From Symbiodinium sp. CCMP2592 (lineage: Eukaryota; Sar; Dinophyceae; Suessiales; Symbiodiniaceae): a stretch of DNA of 64,000 bases. The notes beneath the pieces were generated by a model, which saw only the letters and a list, made by a program, of their open reading frames with translations, was not told the origin of the DNA and did no database searches. Of the stretch, positions 739 to 32,698 are shown in pieces. The DNA is taken from positions 62,001 through 126,000 of the forward strand of contig CAJNDT010004657.1 of NCBI GenBank assembly GCA_905221615.1, written 5' to 3'. Position 1 is the first letter of the stretch, and each line of letters opens with the position of its first letter. A program made the position numbers and the translations under genes.

Positions 739-770
739 TTTCCTTGATTTCTTGATCAGACAGAGAAGAG

Positions 771-3700
771 ATGGACCCTCAAGGACAGAATGTTCAGCAG
801 GGGCCGCAGTTGCCCCAGCAGCCCCTAGGGAGCGCAGGAGTTGAGCCGCCAGTGGCTCAGAACCCGTTCTCTCCAGGTGGGCAAGCACAGCAGCCAGTGC
901 CACAGATGGTGCAAATTGACATGACACAGATGCAATTGCTTATGGCACAGATGGTTGAGACGGCGCAAGCAGCGTCGCAGGCTGCTCAGGCAGCCGTTGG
1001 CAGGGCCCCGAGCAATTTGACTTCAGGGTTTTCAGATGCCAATAAGATCCTTAATCGCCCGTCGGAATTTGGGTCAGGGGTGCACGACAACGACCTTGCA
1101 AATTGGTCTGAATGGAGCCACTCCTTCAGAACATGGTTGGTTTTTGCAGAAAGTCAGTTCGAACAGGACTTAAAGCTTGTGGAGGATAACTTGCAGGGCC
1201 CTGTTGATCTGACTGGGGCATCTCCGGATCGCATTGCAAGGTCTCAGAGGCTCTACGCGATCTTGGCAAGCATTCTGCGTTCGAAGCCAAAAGCGATTTT
1301 GCGTCAGGTCGGCAACAGAAACGGCCTAGAAGTCTGGCGGGTGCTCACCAACACTTTCGCACCCAAATCGAAATTCAGAGGACTGGCTCTTTTGAACGCT
1401 CTTATGACGCTCCCGAGCTTCGGGAAAGATCGCAGCCTGCGAGAACACATCCAAGGCCTCGAGAGAATAGCGGAAGAATATCAAAGGGTCACTGGACATT
1501 ATCCTGGGGAAGAGGTCATGCTAGGCACCCTAGTTCGGTCCCTTCCCTCTGCGATAAAACAGCACGTTCAACTTCAGATGACAGACTCCAGTAGTTACCA
1601 AAGCATCAGGGACTACGTTCTGGGGTACGAAGTAACGACAACGTCATGGACCCCGGCTAAAATGCACCAAGCTCTTGGTGTAGTGCCTTTGCCCAGTGCT
1701 GTCGAGCAAGGCCCAGTCCCGATGGAGGTTGATGCACTGCAAAGAAAGGGGCCAAAGGGCAAGGGCAAGAAGGGCAAAGAGCATAAAGGCAAAGGTGGAC
1801 AGCAACCGCATGTTCCTTACGGTGGCAAGGGCAAGGCCAAAGAAGGCAAGCAAAAGGGCAAGAACAAGGGCAAGGAGCAAAAAGGCAAAGGTGGACAGCA
1901 GCCGCAGAATCCTGGTGCCAAGGGCTCCCGTGCAAATGTTGTTTGCCACAATTGCCAGCGCAAAGGTCATTATGCTAGTGAGTGCTGGCGTCCTCGTGTG
2001 CAGCAAGTCCAGGCACAGGGTTCAGACACGGCGTCCACCGTTGCGCCTAGCACAGTTGGTCCTTCAGCATCGCAAGTCGCCGGCAGCGCTGCTACCACCA
2101 CGAAGCGCGTTGCTAGAGTTGAGATAGACATGACTTCCAGTGCATTTCAGGACGATGCAGAGATCAGCGGTCACATGTGTGTTTTGACAAAAGTGTGTCC
2201 TGAGGACCCAGCTGCAGCTACTGCCCAGCCGAGTTTTGCTTCACTGTGCAAGTCTTTGGCGTCTGCATGCATTGACCCCTTGAAGCCACATGTTCTTTTG
2301 CCAGTGCCCGAGACTGAAGTGTTTGACATGTCATATTCGGACAGTGACTGTGTCTGGACAGTGCCAGATGAGATGCATGGAGCCACATGTGTTGGTTGGT
2401 TGAGCAGTGCACGTGATTCTGAGTATGTGAAGTGCAAGGCACCAGCCCGCAACCGTGCAAGGCCAGGAAGGCGATCACGGCAGCCACTGCAGTGCGAGCT
2501 GATGTTGCACTCATGCGAAGCCGCCGCTGAGCACCTTGTGACCCCACCTGTGCATCCACTTCAGGACCTCAGCGTGTGTGCAGTGTCATGGGCAGACATG
2601 AGCAACGAGATTGAGGTTGTGGTCGACTCTGGGTCGGATGCCTCATGCTTGCCGCTGTCCTGGGCACACGTCGGAAGGGCTGATGGAGCGAGCCTTGATA
2701 GTTTCAGGGATGCCCAGGGTCGCATGATTAGGGGTTCGCAAATGCGTACGGCAGTGCTTCAGATTGATGGTGTGCAATTCAAGGAGCGATGGCTGTTGAG
2801 CAGTGTGACACAACCGCTTTTCAGTGTCGGCAAGTTGCTCAGGCGGGGATGGGACATCATCCACAGTGACGGTGTTCCTTACTTGACAAATCCTGGGGGC
2901 ACAGTGCGAGTGCCTATGCACTACCGGCACAATTCCTTGCATGCACGAGGCTCCATCATGAGCGTGGTAGTGTGCGCCAATGACTGTTTGAGCGATGACA
3001 GAGAGGACGATGCGGCCCGACACCACGAGCCCCAGGAAGCCGAGCTTGATGATGAGCAAGTGCACGGCAATGACCAGCAGGTCGAGGTGCCCCGGAGTGC
3101 TGAAGCAGACAGCCCTGTTGCGGCTGCGGTGCGTGCGCTTAAGCTTGGCAGTGCATGGCTGAACCTACTGGGTAGCCAATACACCGAGATGCAGCATGGA
3201 ATCTTTGCTAGGCAAGATGAGTCGGATCGGTTTCTTGATGTGTCAGTGCCTTTGAGCCACCACGGAGTGGGCTTTCGCACGACTCTTCAGTACGATGGTG
3301 CTGAATGGAGACTGATTGAAATCAACTGCATGATCAGCCTCTTCGACGATCTTGAGAAGGAGTTTGAGCCTAAAGGGTCACGCCACATCATCACCATTGG
3401 CTCTGTTCATCCCTTGCAGGTTGAAAAGCTGTTTGGTCATCAGCCTGTAGCGTGGAACGATGAAAGCTATGATGGCGAGTATGCTGATGCACCGCCTGAT
3501 GAAAACATGCTTGAGGAGGATGAAAAGGCTGAAGATGTTGATGACGGTAGCGGCGTAGGACCTGTACCTCTCGCTGAAGTTCCGTCGCAGGGTCATGTTG
3601 TGGTCAATGGGGTTGAACTGCATCCCGGGTGTACCCTTAAGACCCTAAGGTCGGCCTGTGAGGTTCTTGGAATAGGCAAGTCCGGAGGAAAGCACACGGT

Positions 3701-4460
3701 CTTTGCGAGGATCGAGCAACACTTGAAAACTCAGGAGTTGCTGCAACAGCATGCTTTCCAGACTGATGGTGTGCCATTGCCGCTTGAACAAAAGTTTGTC
3801 GAGGAGCCAACGGCAGAGCAGAAGCGACGGCATGAGCTCAGTCATGTGCCATATGCCGATTGGTGCCCACACTGTGTAAAGTTCCGCGCCAAAGCCGACA
3901 AACATGTGTCGAGCAAACCCGAGCTGCGGGACGATTCGGTGTGCAGCTTCGATTTTGCTTATACAGGACGGAGCAGCCCAGCTGAGTTTGAAGGTGCATC
4001 AAAGGACAAGCTTGTTTGCCTTGTTTTGAAGGACTCCCACACGGGAGCGATGCATGCTGTGCCAACGCCAGCCAAGGGCGGACCGGTTGCGTTCAAGTAT
4101 CTTGTTGCCGAAGTTTGTCGGTTCTTGAATTACTGTGGGCATGAGTCCGTCACGATCAGGTCTGACGGTGAGCCAGCTTGCTTAGCGCTTCAGCAGGGCA
4201 TCAAGGCTTTCAGGACCAAGATGGGGTTACGTACCCACTTGGAACAGACCGAGCCAAGTGATCACCAGTCAAATGCTTCGGAACAAGCCATTGATAGCAT
4301 TCGGCAGCTTGCAGGATGCATTCTTGACCAGTTTGAGGATCGTGCCCAGACAACTGTAGGTGCAGTGCAATGCACCCAATGCACGGCTATGCTTGGAGAC
4401 ACGCGGCATGGCTTCACATGCGAATGTCGCGGCACAACGACCTCAGTGCGTTTCAGGTGA
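771..4460 (+). CDS. Copia polyprotein part 1: Gag, protease, SAP-like domain, integrase
   Basis: Starts at an ATG at 771. Residues about 75-290 are a gag-like helical region. Residues about 325-385 are a Lys/Gly/Gln-rich tract made of repeated KGKGKKGKEH-like units, followed by a CCHC knuckle, CHNCQRKGHYASEC, near residue 393, which binds RNA. The protease active site is VVDSGSDASCLP near 618. Residues about 944-988 read like a SAP DNA-binding motif (LKTLRSACEVLGIGKSGGK). The integrase follows: zinc-type HELSH...WCPHC near 1020, then acidic residues in SFDFAYTG (about 1060), IRSDGEPA (about 1130) and NASEQAID (about 1170). The frame ends 4460 in out-of-frame residues; the integrase continues in the -1 frame from about 4370. 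No heptamer slip site is visible, so a mutational or assembly frameshift is likelier than programmed recoding. Confidence 0.9.
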   Translation: MDPQGQNVQQGPQLPQQPLGSAGVEPPVAQNPFSPGGQAQQPVPQMVQIDMTQMQLLMAQMVETAQAASQAAQAAVGRAPSNLTSGFSDANKILNRPSEFGSGVHDNDLANWSEWSHSFRTWLVFAESQFEQDLKLVEDNLQGPVDLTGASPDRIARSQRLYAILASILRSKPKAILRQVGNRNGLEVWRVLTNTFAPKSKFRGLALLNALMTLPSFGKDRSLREHIQGLERIAEEYQRVTGHYPGEEVMLGTLVRSLPSAIKQHVQLQMTDSSSYQSIRDYVLGYEVTTTSWTPAKMHQALGVVPLPSAVEQGPVPMEVDALQRKGPKGKGKKGKEHKGKGGQQPHVPYGGKGKAKEGKQKGKNKGKEQKGKGGQQPQNPGAKGSRANVVCHNCQRKGHYASECWRPRVQQVQAQGSDTASTVAPSTVGPSASQVAGSAATTTKRVARVEIDMTSSAFQDDAEISGHMCVLTKVCPEDPAAATAQPSFASLCKSLASACIDPLKPHVLLPVPETEVFDMSYSDSDCVWTVPDEMHGATCVGWLSSARDSEYVKCKAPARNRARPGRRSRQPLQCELMLHSCEAAAEHLVTPPVHPLQDLSVCAVSWADMSNEIEVVVDSGSDASCLPLSWAHVGRADGASLDSFRDAQGRMIRGSQMRTAVLQIDGVQFKERWLLSSVTQPLFSVGKLLRRGWDIIHSDGVPYLTNPGGTVRVPMHYRHNSLHARGSIMSVVVCANDCLSDDREDDAARHHEPQEAELDDEQVHGNDQQVEVPRSAEADSPVAAAVRALKLGSAWLNLLGSQYTEMQHGIFARQDESDRFLDVSVPLSHHGVGFRTTLQYDGAEWRLIEINCMISLFDDLEKEFEPKGSRHIITIGSVHPLQVEKLFGHQPVAWNDESYDGEYADAPPDENMLEEDEKAEDVDDGSGVGPVPLAEVPSQGHVVVNGVELHPGCTLKTLRSACEVLGIGKSGGKHTVFARIEQHLKTQELLQQHAFQTDGVPLPLEQKFVEEPTAEQKRRHELSHVPYADWCPHCVKFRAKADKHVSSKPELRDDSVCSFDFAYTGRSSPAEFEGASKDKLVCLVLKDSHTGAMHAVPTPAKGGPVAFKYLVAEVCRFLNYCGHESVTIRSDGEPACLALQQGIKAFRTKMGLRTHLEQTEPSDHQSNASEQAIDSIRQLAGCILDQFEDRAQTTVGAVQCTQCTAMLGDTRHGFTCECRGTTTSVRFR

Positions 4461-27040: not shown

Positions 27041-27235
27041 GCTGCTGCTGCTACTAGTACTAGTACTAGTACTAGTACTAGTACTGGGCATTAGTACTAG
27101 TACTGGTACTGGTACCAATACTCGTACTAGAACTCATACTCGTTGTAGTACTCGTAGTCGTAGTAGTAGTAGAAGAAGTAGTAGTAGTAGTGCTGCTGCT
27201 GCCGCCGCTGCTCCTGCTACTACCGCGACTACTTA

Positions 27236-27334
<99 letters not shown>

Positions 27335-27352
27335 CTTCTACGACTACTACCT

Positions 27353-27409
<57 letters not shown>

Positions 27410-27470
27410 TACTACTACTACTGCTACCTAGTGCTCCTGCTACCGCTACCACTACTACCACTACTACAAG
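27041..27470. repeat. Compound microsatellite: (CTAGTA)n, (GTA)n and long (ACT)n
   Basis: Starts with CTG/CTA units, then a self-complementary hexamer array (ACTAGT)n at about 27051-27086, GTA/GTC units, and two long ACT arrays at about 27236-27330 and 27343-27426 broken by a short imperfect stretch. Open frames here are repeat artefacts (poly-Tyr, poly-Thr, poly-Leu). Confidence 0.95.
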
Positions 27471-27697
27471 TACATTTCATTCACACGCAGCGGGGGAGGA
27501 CTGTCTGTGGTGAAACTTATCGTCCACGCTTTGCGAGGGATCGACCTAGTGCCCTGCTTACTACTTGCGCGGTCACTCTTCACGGCAAGCCGTGCCTCAG
27601 CGCTGCACTTGGACCCTCATTTCGACAACCACCCATATGGCCAGAGCAGTTCTTTAGGTAGGATGGACTTCGTGAGTGTTGAAACCCATATGAATCA

Positions 27698-27961
27698 CCC
27701 TAAACCCTAAACCCCAGCATGTGTCCGTTCAGGGTTTAGAACTCAGGAAGCAGGTGCTTGAGGGAGTTCAGGGTTTAGGGTTCATGGGACTTAGTAAGTA
27801 CTGTTATAAGTACCTGAATTGATGTTATAAGTAAGTATAATAAGAAACTACAAGTACAGTTCCCTGATTTACAACCATTAGTTGCTCAGTCCCATGAACC
27901 TTCAGGTACGGCTTACGGTTCCCGACGAATGAACGAAAATCTAAGCCCTAAACCCTAAACC
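27698..27961. repeat. Fold-back sequence with interstitial telomere-like motifs
   Basis: CCCTAAACCCTAAACCCC at 27698-27715, AGGGTTTAG at 27731, AGGGTTTAGGG at 27770-27780 and CCCTAAACCCTAAAC at 27946-27960 are units of the TTTAGGG telomere repeat in both orientations. Inside them, GGTTCATGGGACT (about 27779) faces its reverse complement AGTCCCATGAACC (about 27890), so 27770-27960 can fold into a stem with telomere-like arms. The loop holds GTTATAAGTA twice. It may be a small non-autonomous element or a scar of telomere-repeat insertion. Confidence 0.7.
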
Positions 27962-28217
27962 GCGCGCGGCCTGCATCAGGAGTCGGGAGATGGTGGCATC
28001 GTTTAAAGCTGCGACCTCAGAGCTCAGAAGTCAGACCGGGAGGGTTCAGGGCACACGCTCCGCCCCTCAGGGCTGCAAGCTGTGAAGTGGGAAGCGAATG
28101 TGTCGTCAGAGTCTTATGCGGCCTTATGATTTCGGCACTAGCTTGAAAGCTAACCGGCTTGGTTGCCATGTATCACTGGCTGCCACCTGATGCTCTCCTA
28201 CCGTTTAAAAAACCCCT

Positions 28218-28364
28218 GGGGAGAAACTCCACCAGCTGTACACACATGGCAAGGGGAGAAACTCCTCCGATTGTTGGGGAGAGTCTCCTCCTAAGGGAGG
28301 GTTGTCCTCTGCCTCGTTGCTGGGGAGTACCTCCACCACGCTGTCGCTTCAGGGGAGAATCTCC
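28218..28364 (-). repeat. Five micro-hairpins in the LINE 3' region
   Basis: The + strand carries GGGGAGNNNCTCC at 28218-28230, 28253-28265, 28276-28288, 28322-28334 and 28352-28364: a GGAG/CTCC stem with a three-base loop (AAA, AAA, AGT, TAC, AAT). The loop varies while the stem is constant, the mark of selection for structure or of a copied unit. A sixth stem, CCTCC/GGAGG, overlaps 28287-28300. They lie about 40-190 bases after the LINE stop codon and would be in its RNA 3' end. Two related GGAGTAACTCC units occur inside the ORF at 30117 and 30150. Confidence 0.75.
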
Positions 28365-28404
28365 ACCTGACGGACCTGCGTCTCCCCGTTTAGGGGCAGA
28401 GCTC

Positions 28405-31400
28405 TCATCCATCGATGCTCGCTGGAAGAGCTCTTGCAGAGACATTACTCGGGAAATTGGCTACGTCCTGGGGCTCGTGAGAGACGGCGCTGCGAGCTAG
28501 GAAGATGACGTAGCTATTTTCTTGAAGCAGGGGATCTTCGAGGGTACAGGGACTAGGGGGGTGGGAGTCATCACCAACATACCAGGCATCTGCTGTGCGT
28601 ACAGCTGCACGGTAATGGCCACTAGTGGACTCCATTCCTAGGTGAATGATCACTGCCTCTACTGTGTAGGTACAGAACGAAACTCGGGATGTGTGGTCCA
28701 GGAAGACAGGGATCTGGACTTGCTGTGGGATTGTGATGCGAGTGTGATCCTTAGCTTCACCTGCGAATCTCGGCAAGGCTAAGCACACCTGCTGTGCAGC
28801 TTCTATGAGAGCACATGAGCGCTCCTGAGACGACCATGCCACTAGCATGTCCTGTAGGTTGGTCTTGATCGCCGTGGCAAGATGAATGGGAGAGCCCCCT
28901 TCTTCGTCCACTATCACGCCTTCCGGTACTGAGGCTCTAGTTTCCCACTGTCCAAATCTTGATGCAGAGAGATTCCGAAACACTTGCTGCAGGAACTCAG
29001 CAGAGTCGTGCTGGCCTCCGTCAAAGAGCCAGCCCATGGTGAGCTCCGAGAAGACTCTGTGTTCAGGGGTTATTCTCGCAAGCTGACTGATCCGGGATGC
29101 CTCTTGAAAAGTCGCCTCTGAAGGATCTGATAGCCAGTGGAGACACTGCAGACCTGAGTTGGCATAGCAGTGGTTGCGAGTATTGGCTAGCAGGAGAAAG
29201 CCTTCCAGTCTAAACACGGGGTGAGGAATTCCTGGCGTTGAATCTGAAGGCTTCTTTGTGACTGTCTTCGCCGATGCCGTGGACTTTGCTCGAGTATATT
29301 CGCGGGGCTGCTTGCTGAGCTGCTGGCGCGCTACCTCCTGCAGTACGTGCACCTGCAGTAATGGAACGCACTGCTGAGCATGTCTACCCGGGGCATCCAC
29401 ACGAAGTTTGCAGTATCGACAGCTATCTCCTTTGTGGAAGAAGACCTTGAATTGATTGAGTCTTGGTTGGAGAGTTTTCTCCAGCTTGGCCATCACCTCA
29501 GGATGCTGCTTGTTTAAATGCTGTTTGGCTCCTTTCTGGCCTACGAGGACCTGACCACAGAGTGCGCAGTGTTCCATCAGGTAATCATGGAACGCCGGAT
29601 TTCGAGCGGCGCCTTCTGGATTGTCCTGGGCATCAGACTGTAGACTTTCTACGAGTGAGATCCGGTTCTGTGCTTCTAAGGGTAGCTCTTCCTGCTGTCT
29701 AAGCAAAAGCTCTACCCTAGGGCAGGTAGATGCTTCGACATGTTTGCGCAGATAAAACACTGTTCGGAATGTTGCTCGACAGGCGATGCAAGTTGCTGAC
29801 CCTGGCATTGAATGCAAAATAGGATCAAATTTGGGTCCTTTCAGGCACTGCTGAGAATCTGGGTGAGCCTTCTGCAGGTGGCGACGGAGTGCTCCGGTGC
29901 CAGAGAGACATGCTCCACATTCACCGCAGGTCAGAAGCCTATCCTCCACATGGTGCGAGGAGAAGTCCGTGGAGAGGCCTTCCAATGCCTGGCTAACTGC
30001 CTCAGCACGCAACTTATAGTGTGGGAGAAGCTGGGGATCGGAGTGTTGCTGTCTCTTTATAAACTGGGTCATTCTCTTTTGCAGCTGCTCCTTCACGTGG
30101 GGAACCCGTAATCTCCGGAGTAACTCCTGGTTTGATTCCTTCGTTTCCTGGGAGTAACTCCGCAGGACGAATCTGAGTTGGTACATCATGTGTGAATGGA
30201 GCTTTTGCAATCCCTGCTGTGTCATCCCCACCACGTGGAGTGCATACAGAGCAGAGGCCCACGCAGTTATTGTCCAAATCGACAGACGACGTCTGTCTGA
30301 TAAGACTCGGTGGTTCCGAACTGCATGGGCTACTTCTGACATTGCAAGCTTACTGGATGACAGCCGATGTTTGAGAGTCTTCATTTCATAGTCGTGATAA
30401 GAAAGAATGACCCCCAAGTATGGGACCTGATAGCGCAGCGATATCAGCCTGCCCGAAGGGAGTTCAACATACTTCTCTCCCTCGACCTGGCGAAAGAGTT
30501 TCTTCCTAATGGTCGAGGCTGAGCCCCCTTGCAGCTGTAGCAGAATTGCTGACTTGGACGGATTGACCTTGAACCCAAGCTCTACCAGCTGATCCAGAAG
30601 CAGGTCGCAGTACCCTAGTGCTGTCATGAGGCCGGCCTCAGAGTCGAAATGCGACTGGATCAAGCTATCGTCAGCGTACATTGTGAGGAGCTTCACTAGT
30701 TCTGCTGGGCTGATTTTCCCAGAGAGCTTCCTAAAGAGAAGCTCTGATGCAAAGGCGAATAAAGAGGGTGCTAGCTTACATCCCTGCTTGATTCCCCTGC
30801 GTGTGGCTATCTCAAAGCTCTGATCGCTGGCTGTCATCTTGTACAAGGCTTTGATGTGGAGATGGCCTACCACCTCTATCAGAAGAGGATCTGCTTGTTC
30901 GGCTTCCAGGGCCTCTCTTAATCGCAGCCTGTTTACAGTGTCAAAAGCTTTGCTCATGTCCACGCTCATGGTGAGACTGCCTCTGAGCTTGAGCCCCTGT
31001 TGTCCCTTACCTGCAGCCCTAGTGGTGAGGGCCTGTCTGAACCTGGCCTGGTCCACATGTGTGAGGGCCTTGCAGATAGCCTCCTCTGTGCCCCTGCCTG
31101 GGACAAAGCCGAACTGAGAGACGCCGGTCATTGCTAGCTGGAGGGTAGACTTGAGTCTCTTCCTCACGAGTCCGGCTAGGACCTTACCCTCAGGTGCTAT
31201 CACCCCGATCGGACGGAGTGAGGTTGGTTTGTCTGGCTTCTTGGGAGGCTTTGGGAGCCAGGAGATCTGTGACGAGGTGACACTGTCCGAGAGCCTTCCT
31301 GCAGTGACTTCCCTATTAAGGGTGTCCGAGATTAGCCGGATTGCTTGGGGACCTAGGGAGCGCCAGGCTACTACGGGAGGACTCTCTTTAGGAACCGCCT

Positions 31401-32370
31401 TGCCCAGCTTTATTGTGCCAAGCTGTTCTTGCACTTCTTGCTCAGTGATGTGCAGGCTGCCTTGTATCCCTGAAAGCGGGAAGTCATCCCCTGCTCCAAA
31501 CAGGTCTAGGGAATATTCCTCTAATTGTCTTCTTTCTTCCTTGGCAGTAAGGAAGCGACCCTCAGAATCACGAAGCTGAACTCTTTCCTGGGGCCTCCCC
31601 GACCTGAAGCGCTTGATTACCTTGTAAAGGGAATGACTCCCGTCCTGCTTGGACTTAAGCTCTGCCTGCTGGAGTTGTTCATCTATTTCCTGCCGCCGCC
31701 GCTCCTGCTTGTGACGCTTTGCTACCCTCGCCTGTGCACTTTGCTGGGAGAACGAGCACCAGCATCGGAACACCATACGGACCTGCAGCTCGGGCAAGAA
31801 CTCTGCTAAGACCTTGACTGCTAGTGGGAGTGAGCGCAACACAGAGCGCTCTTCCCAGATGCTGAGATCTGATCTTTGTGCTGCTTCCTTTCTCTTGGGA
31901 AAGTGAGTCGCGAGGGCTGAGTTCATTGCTTGATGGAGACTCTGCCAGGTTTGGGGATGATCCTGAAGGAGGGAGTCTACCTCCCTGGCAAATGCCTGTA
32001 TTTTCGGGGAACGGTGTCTGTAGCAGTCCTCCATTGCCTGCTGGTCATAGGGTTTTGAGGCTTGGGCGGAGTATCTCCTGCTGTGCCTCAGTTTACCAAG
32101 AAGGGGGAAATGCCTACTACCATCCCTCCAGGATGCAACTGGGAAGGTCCTTAGTGGCCGGCAAAACCTGGCGGGGCCTTGGGACTGTGCAATCCTGACA
32201 AACGAGAAGTCAATCTGTGAAACAGAGTTGCCTTGTTCGTGGGTGGCTGGTCTATGCACTCCCCAAGTGTTGGTTGCGACTAGCTGGTGCTCCGACAGTA
32301 GGGTCTGGAGATCCTTAGATCCGCGATGCCCGAGTCTGCAAGCCTGGATCGTGCATGGCCCTACGTGTTT
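28405..32370 (-). CDS. LINE polyprotein: endonuclease C-terminus, RT, C2H2 zinc fingers, USP-type deubiquitinase
   Basis: An open frame of 1321 LINE codons (numbers count from 32589, where the chimeric frame opens inside the inserted element). It starts with the end of an AP-endonuclease (HVGPCTIQ, VATNTWG, SQIDFSFVR, GSRHFPLL). Reverse transcriptase motifs are SVDMSKAFDTVNR (about 541), RRGIKQGCKLAPS (about 600) and TMYADDSLI (YADD at about 637). Zinc-finger-like units follow: CGECGACLSGTGALRRHLQKAH (887), CIAC...H...C (934), CALC...HLNKQH (1007) and CRYC...H..QC (1056). The C-terminus is a ubiquitin-specific protease domain: Cys box LANTRNHCYANSGLQCL with Cys1141, GQHDSAEFLQQ (about 1191), His box SGHYRAAV with His1325, and Asp1340/1341 in YVGDD, ending NSYVIFLAR. 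The whole triad is present. No stop or frameshift is seen in this half. The domain is compact, about 240 residues. Confidence 0.93.
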   Translation of the reverse strand, partial: KHVGPCTIQACRLGHRGSKDLQTLLSEHQLVATNTWGVHRPATHEQGNSVSQIDFSFVRIAQSQGPARFCRPLRTFPVASWRDGSRHFPLLGKLRHSRRYSAQASKPYDQQAMEDCYRHRSPKIQAFAREVDSLLQDHPQTWQSLHQAMNSALATHFPKRKEAAQRSDLSIWEERSVLRSLPLAVKVLAEFLPELQVRMVFRCWCSFSQQSAQARVAKRHKQERRRQEIDEQLQQAELKSKQDGSHSLYKVIKRFRSGRPQERVQLRDSEGRFLTAKEERRQLEEYSLDLFGAGDDFPLSGIQGSLHITEQEVQEQLGTIKLGKAVPKESPPVVAWRSLGPQAIRLISDTLNREVTAGRLSDSVTSSQISWLPKPPKKPDKPTSLRPIGVIAPEGKVLAGLVRKRLKSTLQLAMTGVSQFGFVPGRGTEEAICKALTHVDQARFRQALTTRAAGKGQQGLKLRGSLTMSVDMSKAFDTVNRLRLREALEAEQADPLLIEVVGHLHIKALYKMTASDQSFEIATRRGIKQGCKLAPSLFAFASELLFRKLSGKISPAELVKLLTMYADDSLIQSHFDSEAGLMTALGYCDLLLDQLVELGFKVNPSKSAILLQLQGGSASTIRKKLFRQVEGEKYVELPSGRLISLRYQVPYLGVILSYHDYEMKTLKHRLSSSKLAMSEVAHAVRNHRVLSDRRRLSIWTITAWASALYALHVVGMTQQGLQKLHSHMMYQLRFVLRSYSQETKESNQELLRRLRVPHVKEQLQKRMTQFIKRQQHSDPQLLPHYKLRAEAVSQALEGLSTDFSSHHVEDRLLTCGECGACLSGTGALRRHLQKAHPDSQQCLKGPKFDPILHSMPGSATCIACRATFRTVFYLRKHVEASTCPRVELLLRQQEELPLEAQNRISLVESLQSDAQDNPEGAARNPAFHDYLMEHCALCGQVLVGQKGAKQHLNKQHPEVMAKLEKTLQPRLNQFKVFFHKGDSCRYCKLRVDAPGRHAQQCVPLLQVHVLQEVARQQLSKQPREYTRAKSTASAKTVTKKPSDSTPGIPHPVFRLEGFLLLANTRNHCYANSGLQCLHWLSDPSEATFQEASRISQLARITPEHRVFSELTMGWLFDGGQHDSAEFLQQVFRNLSASRFGQWETRASVPEGVIVDEEGGSPIHLATAIKTNLQDMLVAWSSQERSCALIEAAQQVCLALPRFAGEAKDHTRITIPQQVQIPVFLDHTSRVSFCTYTVEAVIIHLGMESTSGHYRAAVRTADAWYVGDDSHPPSPCTLEDPLLQENSYVIFLARSAVSHEPQDVANFPSNVSARALPASIDG

Positions 32371-32416
32371 GACTTGCAGCGATTGCAGTTGATACTTTGC
32401 ACTCGTAGCTTTTCGG
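32371..32416 (+). repeat. Split direct repeat A1
   Basis: 46 bases from GACTTGCAGCG to CTTTTCGG, identical to A2. Marks the left end of the element; LINE sequence resumes at 32370. Confidence 0.93.
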
Positions 32417-32425
32417 ATCCAGGGA

Positions 32426-32698
32426 ATGTTCGATAGGCCCGGGGTCTGGCCACTCCTTCTCGGGTGGCTGGGGTGCTCGAGCCATAGCTCTAGCGATTTT
32501 CTGCTGGCCATCTTGGTTAGCTGGCTGTGCGGCTTGATCTTCGGCATTCTGTTGATTGGGATTATTCTCAGCCGCACTGCACGGAACATCCTCTGGGCTT
32601 GTGTGGGATCAGTGGTGAGGGAACTTTCTCCAGTCGCCCCTGTGGCTGCTGGTGGTCAGCGCTTGGCCCGCTACCCCGGCCACGTGCATGAGCAGTGA
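32426..32698 (+). CDS. Small membrane-protein ORF at the 5' end of the PAT-like element
   Basis: ATG at 32426, 90 codons, TGA at 32696-32698. Residues about 25-48 (FLLAILVSWLCGLIFGILLI) form a long hydrophobic span flanked by Ser before and Arg after, so a single-pass membrane protein is predicted. The ORF ends 11 bases inside the next one, as in compact retroelements. Its antisense shadow is the false N-terminus of the LINE frame. No family recognised. Whether it is translated is unknown. Confidence 0.5.
   Translation: MFDRPGVWPLLLGWLGCSSHSSSDFLLAILVSWLCGLIFGILLIGIILSRTARNILWACVGSVVRELSPVAPVAAGGQRLARYPGHVHEQ

Follow-up and report, generated by a model that had tools for sequence, protein, structure and literature searches.

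Does a dinoflagellate LINE encode a competent ubiquitin-specific protease (USP) as part of its own protein, and what would such an enzyme do for the element? These questions are raised by a long open frame in the stretch of Symbiodinium sp. CCMP2592 DNA analyzed here (the window; 64,000 nucleotides), at the end of which a preliminary description had placed an apparently active USP domain behind a LINE reverse transcriptase (RT).

Extent of the window copy and structure of the complete element

The frame (P0001; 1,416 amino acids from stop to stop) is found in the ORF listing at 28405..32655 on the minus strand. A plus-strand reading of 28405-29230 was ruled out, as it contains stops throughout. 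The preliminary description had treated the frame as LINE from end to end, and this did not hold. By blastn, 29 other copies were 97.8 to 99.8% identical to the window copy from 28301 or 28417 to 32371 (L030 in two pieces), and above a break at 32371 none of them matched the window. Likewise, of the 33 own-genome matches to P0001, 32 began at query residue 95, and the remaining one is the window. Since homology begins at 32371, the 1,416-codon frame was ruled out as a complete LINE ORF; the segment 32372-32655 (about codons 1 to 94) is therefore not LINE but flanking DNA, open by happenstance. The window copy breaks off within the APE endonuclease, the first part of which is missing, and cannot be autonomous.

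As delimited by blastn against the 29 other copies, the 5'-incomplete window copy occupies 27473..32371; it and the parts named next are all on the minus strand. What remains of the APE/EEP endonuclease, its C-terminal portion (about residues 95 to 190; 32086..32373), was located by an alignment with longer relatives (A1; 12 proteins, down to 29% identity). The RT domain (residues 472 to 750, with YADD at 660; 30406..31242) was recognized by Pfam as RVT_1 (4.4e-22). It is followed by a Cys/His zinc-finger-like region (residues 907 to 1100; 29356..29937) in which the Pfam zf-C2H2 matches are under the curated cut-off and the Cys and His columns of A1 are invariant or nearly so. The USP domain (peptidase C19, UCH) covers residues 1141 to 1391 (28483..29235). 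The 3' untranslated region (UTR) carries five GGGGAGA..CTCC palindrome-like repeats (repeat family D4; 28218..28367), and in most of the 29 copies matching pieces of the 3' part continue down to about 27475. The 3' end of the window copy reads ...GTGTGAATGAAATG, and directly past it lies a (GTA)n-like trinucleotide tract (27217..27472), read from the sequence as the target-site repeat. The 3' part also contains extra DNA (27612-28050) that other copies lack, L004 and L019 among them, the two sides being contiguous there; several TTTAGGG-like (telomere-type) units were seen within it. Since no duplication of at least 9 nt was found around the insertion in the window, the 5' break may reflect truncation on insertion or a later rearrangement. 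Elsewhere in the window, a 1,234-amino-acid plus-strand frame (756-4457) gave a marginal match to a Copia-type gag (4.2e-6; 26.8 bits versus a cut-off of 27), and the 925-amino-acid frame after it had no Pfam match.

The organism's own genome (1.098 Gb in 5,383 contigs) holds at least 33 matches to P0001 at 95 to 100% identity, the window included. All 33 scored matches extended through the USP and 30 were stop-free, counts that are lower bounds biased toward intact copies because such searches score the best candidates only. With the relative P0003 as the query, all 30 matches listed spanned query residue 1 to 1529-1531, and 29 were stop-free. The 5' end (...AGCCTCTCGGCTCAGGAAAGG) was present about 185 nt upstream of the first Met in 29 of 29 other loci, with its motif at position 609-611 in each; the 3' end motif (CTGCGTGTGAATGAAATG) was present in 28 of 30. 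The full element is about 5.5 kb long (longer 3' type) and, in copy L002, contains a single ORF of 1,557 amino acids from Met. This ORF specifies, in order, a basic N terminus, an APE-type endonuclease, the RT, the Cys/His fingers, and the USP. In 24 of the 29 loci fetched besides that of the window, a single frame spans APE to USP, L030 carrying an in-frame deletion; of the remaining five, two (L004 and L014) change frame upstream and three (L024, L026, and L027) contain a stop.

Among PDB chains, the RT of L002 best matched LINE-1 ORF2p (8.4e-10) and also matched R2 (1.8e-6), and YADD was kept in all 30 loci. The APE motifs LSWNAG...QETHW...GDFN...SQIDF were present in L002 and the longer rows of A1. 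Pfam placed RVT_1 and UCH over cut-off in both P0001 and L002, with APE, zinc-finger, and other rows sub-threshold; Exo_endo_phos was weak in full-length L002 (0.01) and above cut-off in P0015 (2.2e-5) and in P0024 (6e-10). Together, the non-LTR RT, the upstream APE, the dispersed copies with fixed ends, and the target-site duplications identify the element as an APE-type LINE. A host USP gene beside or under a LINE was ruled out, since RT and USP share one frame in many copies and relatives.

At both ends the element borders on trinucleotide repeats, mostly of the TTG type; LINEs that target microsatellites are known. A period-3 match of at least 0.6 was reached in the 36 nt upstream at 26 of 29 loci and in the 36-nt stretch just downstream at 21 of 28, the window's included, compared with 0.02% of random 36-mers inside the element. 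A common word of at least 9 nt occurred at both junctions in 19 of the 27 loci with both ends, several of these being plain repeats that are uninformative alone, and in 34 of 702 swapped flanks; duplications outside plain repeats were seen, for example, at L006, L008, L017, and L018. The insertions are therefore of the target-primed type, with duplications of about 10 to 15 nt. That copies are nearly identical and their target-site duplications fresh points to recent mobility. A piece of the 3' UTR of another copy was seen just upstream at 6 of 29 loci (L003, L005, L016, L020, L022, and L023), and L025 had a head-to-tail neighbor on its downstream side. In such head-to-tail copies, the 3' UTR piece and trinucleotide tract of one directly precede the next, as if the element's own repeat tails served as targets.

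The USP domain and its conservation

The USP signature reported earlier at the C terminus of the LINE ORF was recovered by Pfam (UCH; 1.8e-11 with the whole ORF, 3.3e-13 with the piece), the latter match to PF00443 covering profile positions 3 to 253 of 254. All the motifs named at the time (LANTRNHCYANSGLQCL, QHDSAEFL, SGHYRAAV, YVGDD, and NSYVIFLA) are present in P0001. The domain was also delimited by a profile and by an AF2 model and its structural matches. A profile from 15 chosen domains (A2; down to 21% identity, with P0071 left out) matched USP7 chains in the PDB at 1.8e-16. The AF2 model was confident and had a USP fold, with structural matches to USP35, USP12, and USP46. The LINE domains thus resemble cellular USPs (USP35, USP12, USP46, and USP7) in predicted fold and in their Cys/His/Asp/Asn active site, and they differ in being compact (about 250 amino acids), in being fused to a LINE protein, and in having, by eye, no CxxC zinc-ribbon pairs.

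The active site was mapped on the minus strand to Asn1158 (29182..29184), which by USP7 we take to be the oxyanion Asn; the catalytic Cys1163 (29167..29169); the QxD box, Q1215-H-D1217 (29005..29013); the catalytic His1347 (28615..28617); and the catalytic Asp1362/Asp1363 (28567..28572). The earlier statement that the triad and the oxyanion Asn are kept was borne out. Its numbering (Cys1141, His1325, Asp1340/1341) was not; stop-to-stop, these residues are C1163, H1347, and D1362/D1363, an offset of 22, as if counted from the first Met. All seven residues (N1158, C1163, Q1215, D1217, H1347, D1362, and D1363) were kept in 30 of 30 loci (L001 to L030), in each of which the USP was stop-free (L023 with one 3-nt gap there). 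N1158, C1163, Q1215, D1217, SGHYR, and DD were likewise invariant in all 12 rows of A1. In A2, where mean column identity was 39%, the corresponding N28, C33, Q85, D87, H217, D232, and D233 were among 20 invariant columns of 266; that the five named catalytic columns would all fall among these by chance has a probability of 1.5e-6.

The suggestion of selection for activity was examined in 29 distinct copies. Counting only variants found in at least two copies, the USP had 2 nonsynonymous and 9 synonymous changes (expected ratio without selection, 2.51; binomial P value = 3.8e-4), the RT 2 and 13, and the thumb-finger region 6 and 8. For singletons, the counts in the USP (26 and 31) and the RT (29 and 33) were indistinguishable (Fisher P value = 1.0). 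The copies compared were the best protein scorers, which lowers nonsynonymous counts in all domains; because this bias acts on both domains alike, the comparison of USP with RT is fairer than the absolute values. Only synonymous changes were found among copies in the codons of N1158 and H1347. Selection on the USP is thus purifying, like that on the RT, with the triad kept across copies and diverged relatives. A C-terminal USP fused to an APE-type LINE protein is present in many copies and in diverged relatives, and the prediction that the USP is enzymatically active is well supported.

Relatives and history of the USP domain

Of 22 homologs of P0001, 7 (P0002 to P0008; 56 to 59% identity) had precomputed UCH and RVT_1 matches. 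P0013 to P0016 (29 to 30% identity) lacked a precomputed UCH; even at E values up to 1, Pfam gave P0013 and P0015 no UCH match, and P0014 matched at 0.0032. Loss of the USP from these four was ruled out, since every box was intact in A1. Four more distant LINEs (P0018, P0019, P0020, and P0022) showed no USP by either Pfam or the USP profile; P0019 and P0022 end soon past the RT, and P0020 does not.

A genome-wide search with PF00443, in which the best 149 of 1,371 candidates were scored, gave at least 148 matches, many in frames of 1,600 to 3,400 amino acids; by eye, none of the 33 P0001 places was among the matches listed. One locus from the same genome, L032, is a second, very different APE-LINE with a USP. 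Its protein, P0024, matched UCH (2.4e-20), RVT_1 (3.9e-14), and Exo_endo_phos and had 48 homologs, 12 of them with UCH and RVT_1, the organism-named ones being from Symbiodinium. Across 73 rows (72 proteins and L002), the USP profile found the domain in 32, nearly complete in 28. By eye, His, DD, and QxD were intact in every one of these 28 and the Cys box in 26; the missing part of the Cys box in P0038 and P0072 apparently reflects gene-model limits, and P0071 has GHC in place of GHY. No close non-LINE donor of the domain was found: a search with profile A2 gave 23 short proteins, and those with enough upstream sequence resembled LINE fragments by eye.

Trees of the RT (60 rows) and the USP (26 rows) contain the same main clades, P0001 to P0008, P0013 to P0016, and the P0024 group. 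This agreement, judged from main clades, points to one old USP capture, probably followed by joint inheritance with the RT. P0038 was placed differently in the two trees, and P0070 and P0071 lay on long branches, which leaves the deepest rows unsure. Over the 60 rows of the RT tree, USP presence was scattered, requiring 16 changes. We put much of this scatter down to truncated gene models, such as P0025 beside P0024, P0058 beside P0027, and P0060, P0063, and P0065 beside P0033. One RT-tree group of eight has no USP row (P0036, P0040, P0044, P0050, P0052, P0054, P0061, and P0062), possibly a real loss. Neither a failure to match the USP family nor random loss of Cys, His, or Asp, findings named beforehand as refuting the domain, was obtained; the whole domain is apparently missing from some rows of the RT tree, a good part of which are truncated gene models. 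When 36 USPs were placed in one tree, a branch (99/97) separated 24 LINE domains and L040, L042, L044, and L045 from two Helitron USPs and six other own-genome USPs; L040 and L042 had beforehand been labeled other, and L044 and L045 had been labeled LINE by frame length alone.

Several side observations concern these relatives. The finger-USP spacer of L032 (6459-7262, plus strand), open in the RT frame, overlaps a 267-amino-acid ORF (MFEDDELTEFFGE...) in another frame, and related sequence stands at the C terminus of the diverged Symbiodinium models P0025, P0029, P0040, P0044, P0052, and P0063. The overlapping frame stayed as open in 17 of 2,000 synonymous shuffles, and this ORF is possibly an additional LINE gene that arose by overprinting. 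Deposited Symbiodinium LINE models are named MCAT (P0043, P0051, P0052, P0059, P0063, and P0065) or malonyl-CoA transacylase (P0060), and several of these end in the overlapping-ORF product, without a USP. P0017 (Symbiodinium microadriaticum, named kptA) joins a piece of window-family RT to a KptA/Tpt1 RNA 2'-phosphotransferase domain (1.8e-28), which may be a gene-model fusion or a domain capture.

Possible roles of the USP domain

Deconjugating proteases borne by transposons are known; apparently new here are the LINE as a carrier class for USP and the deep, well-kept history of the association. Searches of the open-licence PMC literature turned up no description of a LINE-borne USP, and the word ubiquitin occurred 0 times in the main text of two dinoflagellate genome papers (PMC8045281, PMC11453091). 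Helitrons and Helentrons carry VTD and OTU deubiquitinase (DUB) domains, and the VTD Helitrons named there include ones from vertebrates, insects, cnidarians, and molluscs (PMC9741609). Like the LINE, they have an in-frame DUB with its catalytic residues kept that has spread with the element. They differ in being rolling-circle DNA transposons whose VTD and OTU domains belong to cysteine-protease families other than USP/C19 (PMC9741609), and no helicase or Rep domain of the Helitron kind was found by Pfam in P0001 or full-length L002. Ginger1 and Mutator transposons with Ulp1 or OTU, and one Trichomonas vaginalis transposase_11-peptidase C19 protein, are described elsewhere (PMC2836005); they too place a deconjugating protease on a transposition protein, in one case a C19 enzyme that the passages on it name without analyzing it further, but are cut-and-paste DNA transposons, not LINEs. 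SymbioLINE-Dnmt elements are dinoflagellate (Symbiodinium) LINEs with a captured host regulatory enzyme under purifying selection, but that enzyme is a DNA methyltransferase, encoded in most cases by an ORF that precedes the RT ORF; in the main text of that paper, ubiquitin and peptidase occur 0 times (PMC5890265). Such an upstream DNMT ORF1 is absent here, the 5' end lying about 185 nt before the first Met and L002 having no DNMT domain.

The explanation that we favor, at a probability of roughly 0.55, is that a trinucleotide-repeat LINE captured a competent C-terminal USP once and most likely uses it to deubiquitinate its own protein or RNP. The ancestor of the LINE lineage would have acquired the domain, which would then have been inherited together with the RT. 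Covalent fusion to the RT would keep the DUB at the RNP for local action, removing ubiquitin from the element's own protein or RNP in cis or on neighboring copies, and the deubiquitinated RNP could escape proteasomal disposal long enough to reach its target and prime. For Helitron DUBs, the idea that transposition proteins are shielded from degradation has been discussed (PMC9741609). What the data establish is the fusion, the predicted fold, the intact active site, purifying selection, conservation over deep divergence, and insertion by a mechanism that duplicates the target site; we infer a single capture, an active enzyme, ubiquitin as its substrate in preference to another modifier, and the self-protective role.

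Unlikely, yet the best surviving of the alternatives, is that the active USP acts at the insertion site on chromatin or repair factors (ubiquitinated histones, PCNA- or FANCD2-like clamps), opening or finishing the target instead of saving the RNP. The structural matches include the SAGA Ubp8 module (6aqr, 3mhh), USP1-FANCD2 (7zh3), and USP12/46, though the fold is common to all USPs and its similarity is silent on substrate. The Cys/His fingers between RT and USP and a definite target type, trinucleotide repeats, would also suit such a role, and repair-related roles have been suggested for transposon Ulp1 and OTU domains (PMC2836005).

The preferred reading, deubiquitination of the element's own RNP, takes ubiquitin as the probable substrate. 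That the domain removes another modifier (SUMO-, ISG15-, or Fubi-like) seems improbable to us: C19 proteases for other modifiers exist, structures of USP18-ISG15 and USP36-Fubi are among the structural matches, and the LINE USPs lack CxxC pairs, but in A2 the QxD box never varies in its D, a residue that contacts the Arg-rich ubiquitin tail in USP7. We give very little credence to self-processing, in which the USP would cleave the LINE protein as a polyprotein, a role that the C-terminal position and the poorly conserved linker ahead of the USP (A1 columns 1301 to 1380) might suggest; USPs cut after ubiquitin-like moieties, and Pfam found no ubiquitin-like domain in P0001 or L002. The 5'-incomplete window copy might hint at a functionless passenger or an assembly or annotation artefact, a notion that can practically be set aside: the element recurs at 33 or more sites of the assembly, related proteins are deposited in separate records, selection is purifying, and the active site is intact.

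A LINE lineage with its own deubiquitinase, retained across a very deep divergence, would be direct evidence that ubiquitin signaling limits retrotransposition there. USP would also be added to VTD and OTU among transposon-borne DUBs, with recurrent DUB capture by mobile DNA as a general theme. A wider reading, to which we would give clearly less than an even chance, is that dinoflagellates use ubiquitination as a first defense against mobile DNA, that unrelated elements, LINEs (C-terminally) and Helitrons (N-terminally), independently captured USPs to disarm it, and that the LINE USP is now a standing part of the machine of an old, recently mobile lineage.

Helitron-like elements of the same genome (L034; L031 with L035) share with the LINE the pairing of a mobile element with a USP and differ in being of the helicase type, with an N-terminal USP from another USP branch. 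L034 (72-5582, plus strand; contig C994) matched UCH (5.5e-18), Helitron_like_N (2.9e-5, under its cut-off), and an AAA helicase, and on contig C1557 (L031, 3-1298, and L035, 57-4217, both minus strand) the N-terminal USP came from the genome-wide UCH search and L035 matched an AAA helicase. These Helitron-type proteins have, by eye, Rep-like motifs, and their N-terminal USP keeps CxxC pairs. Several UCH matches with array-like spacing were seen on each of contigs C994, C1987, and C2844.
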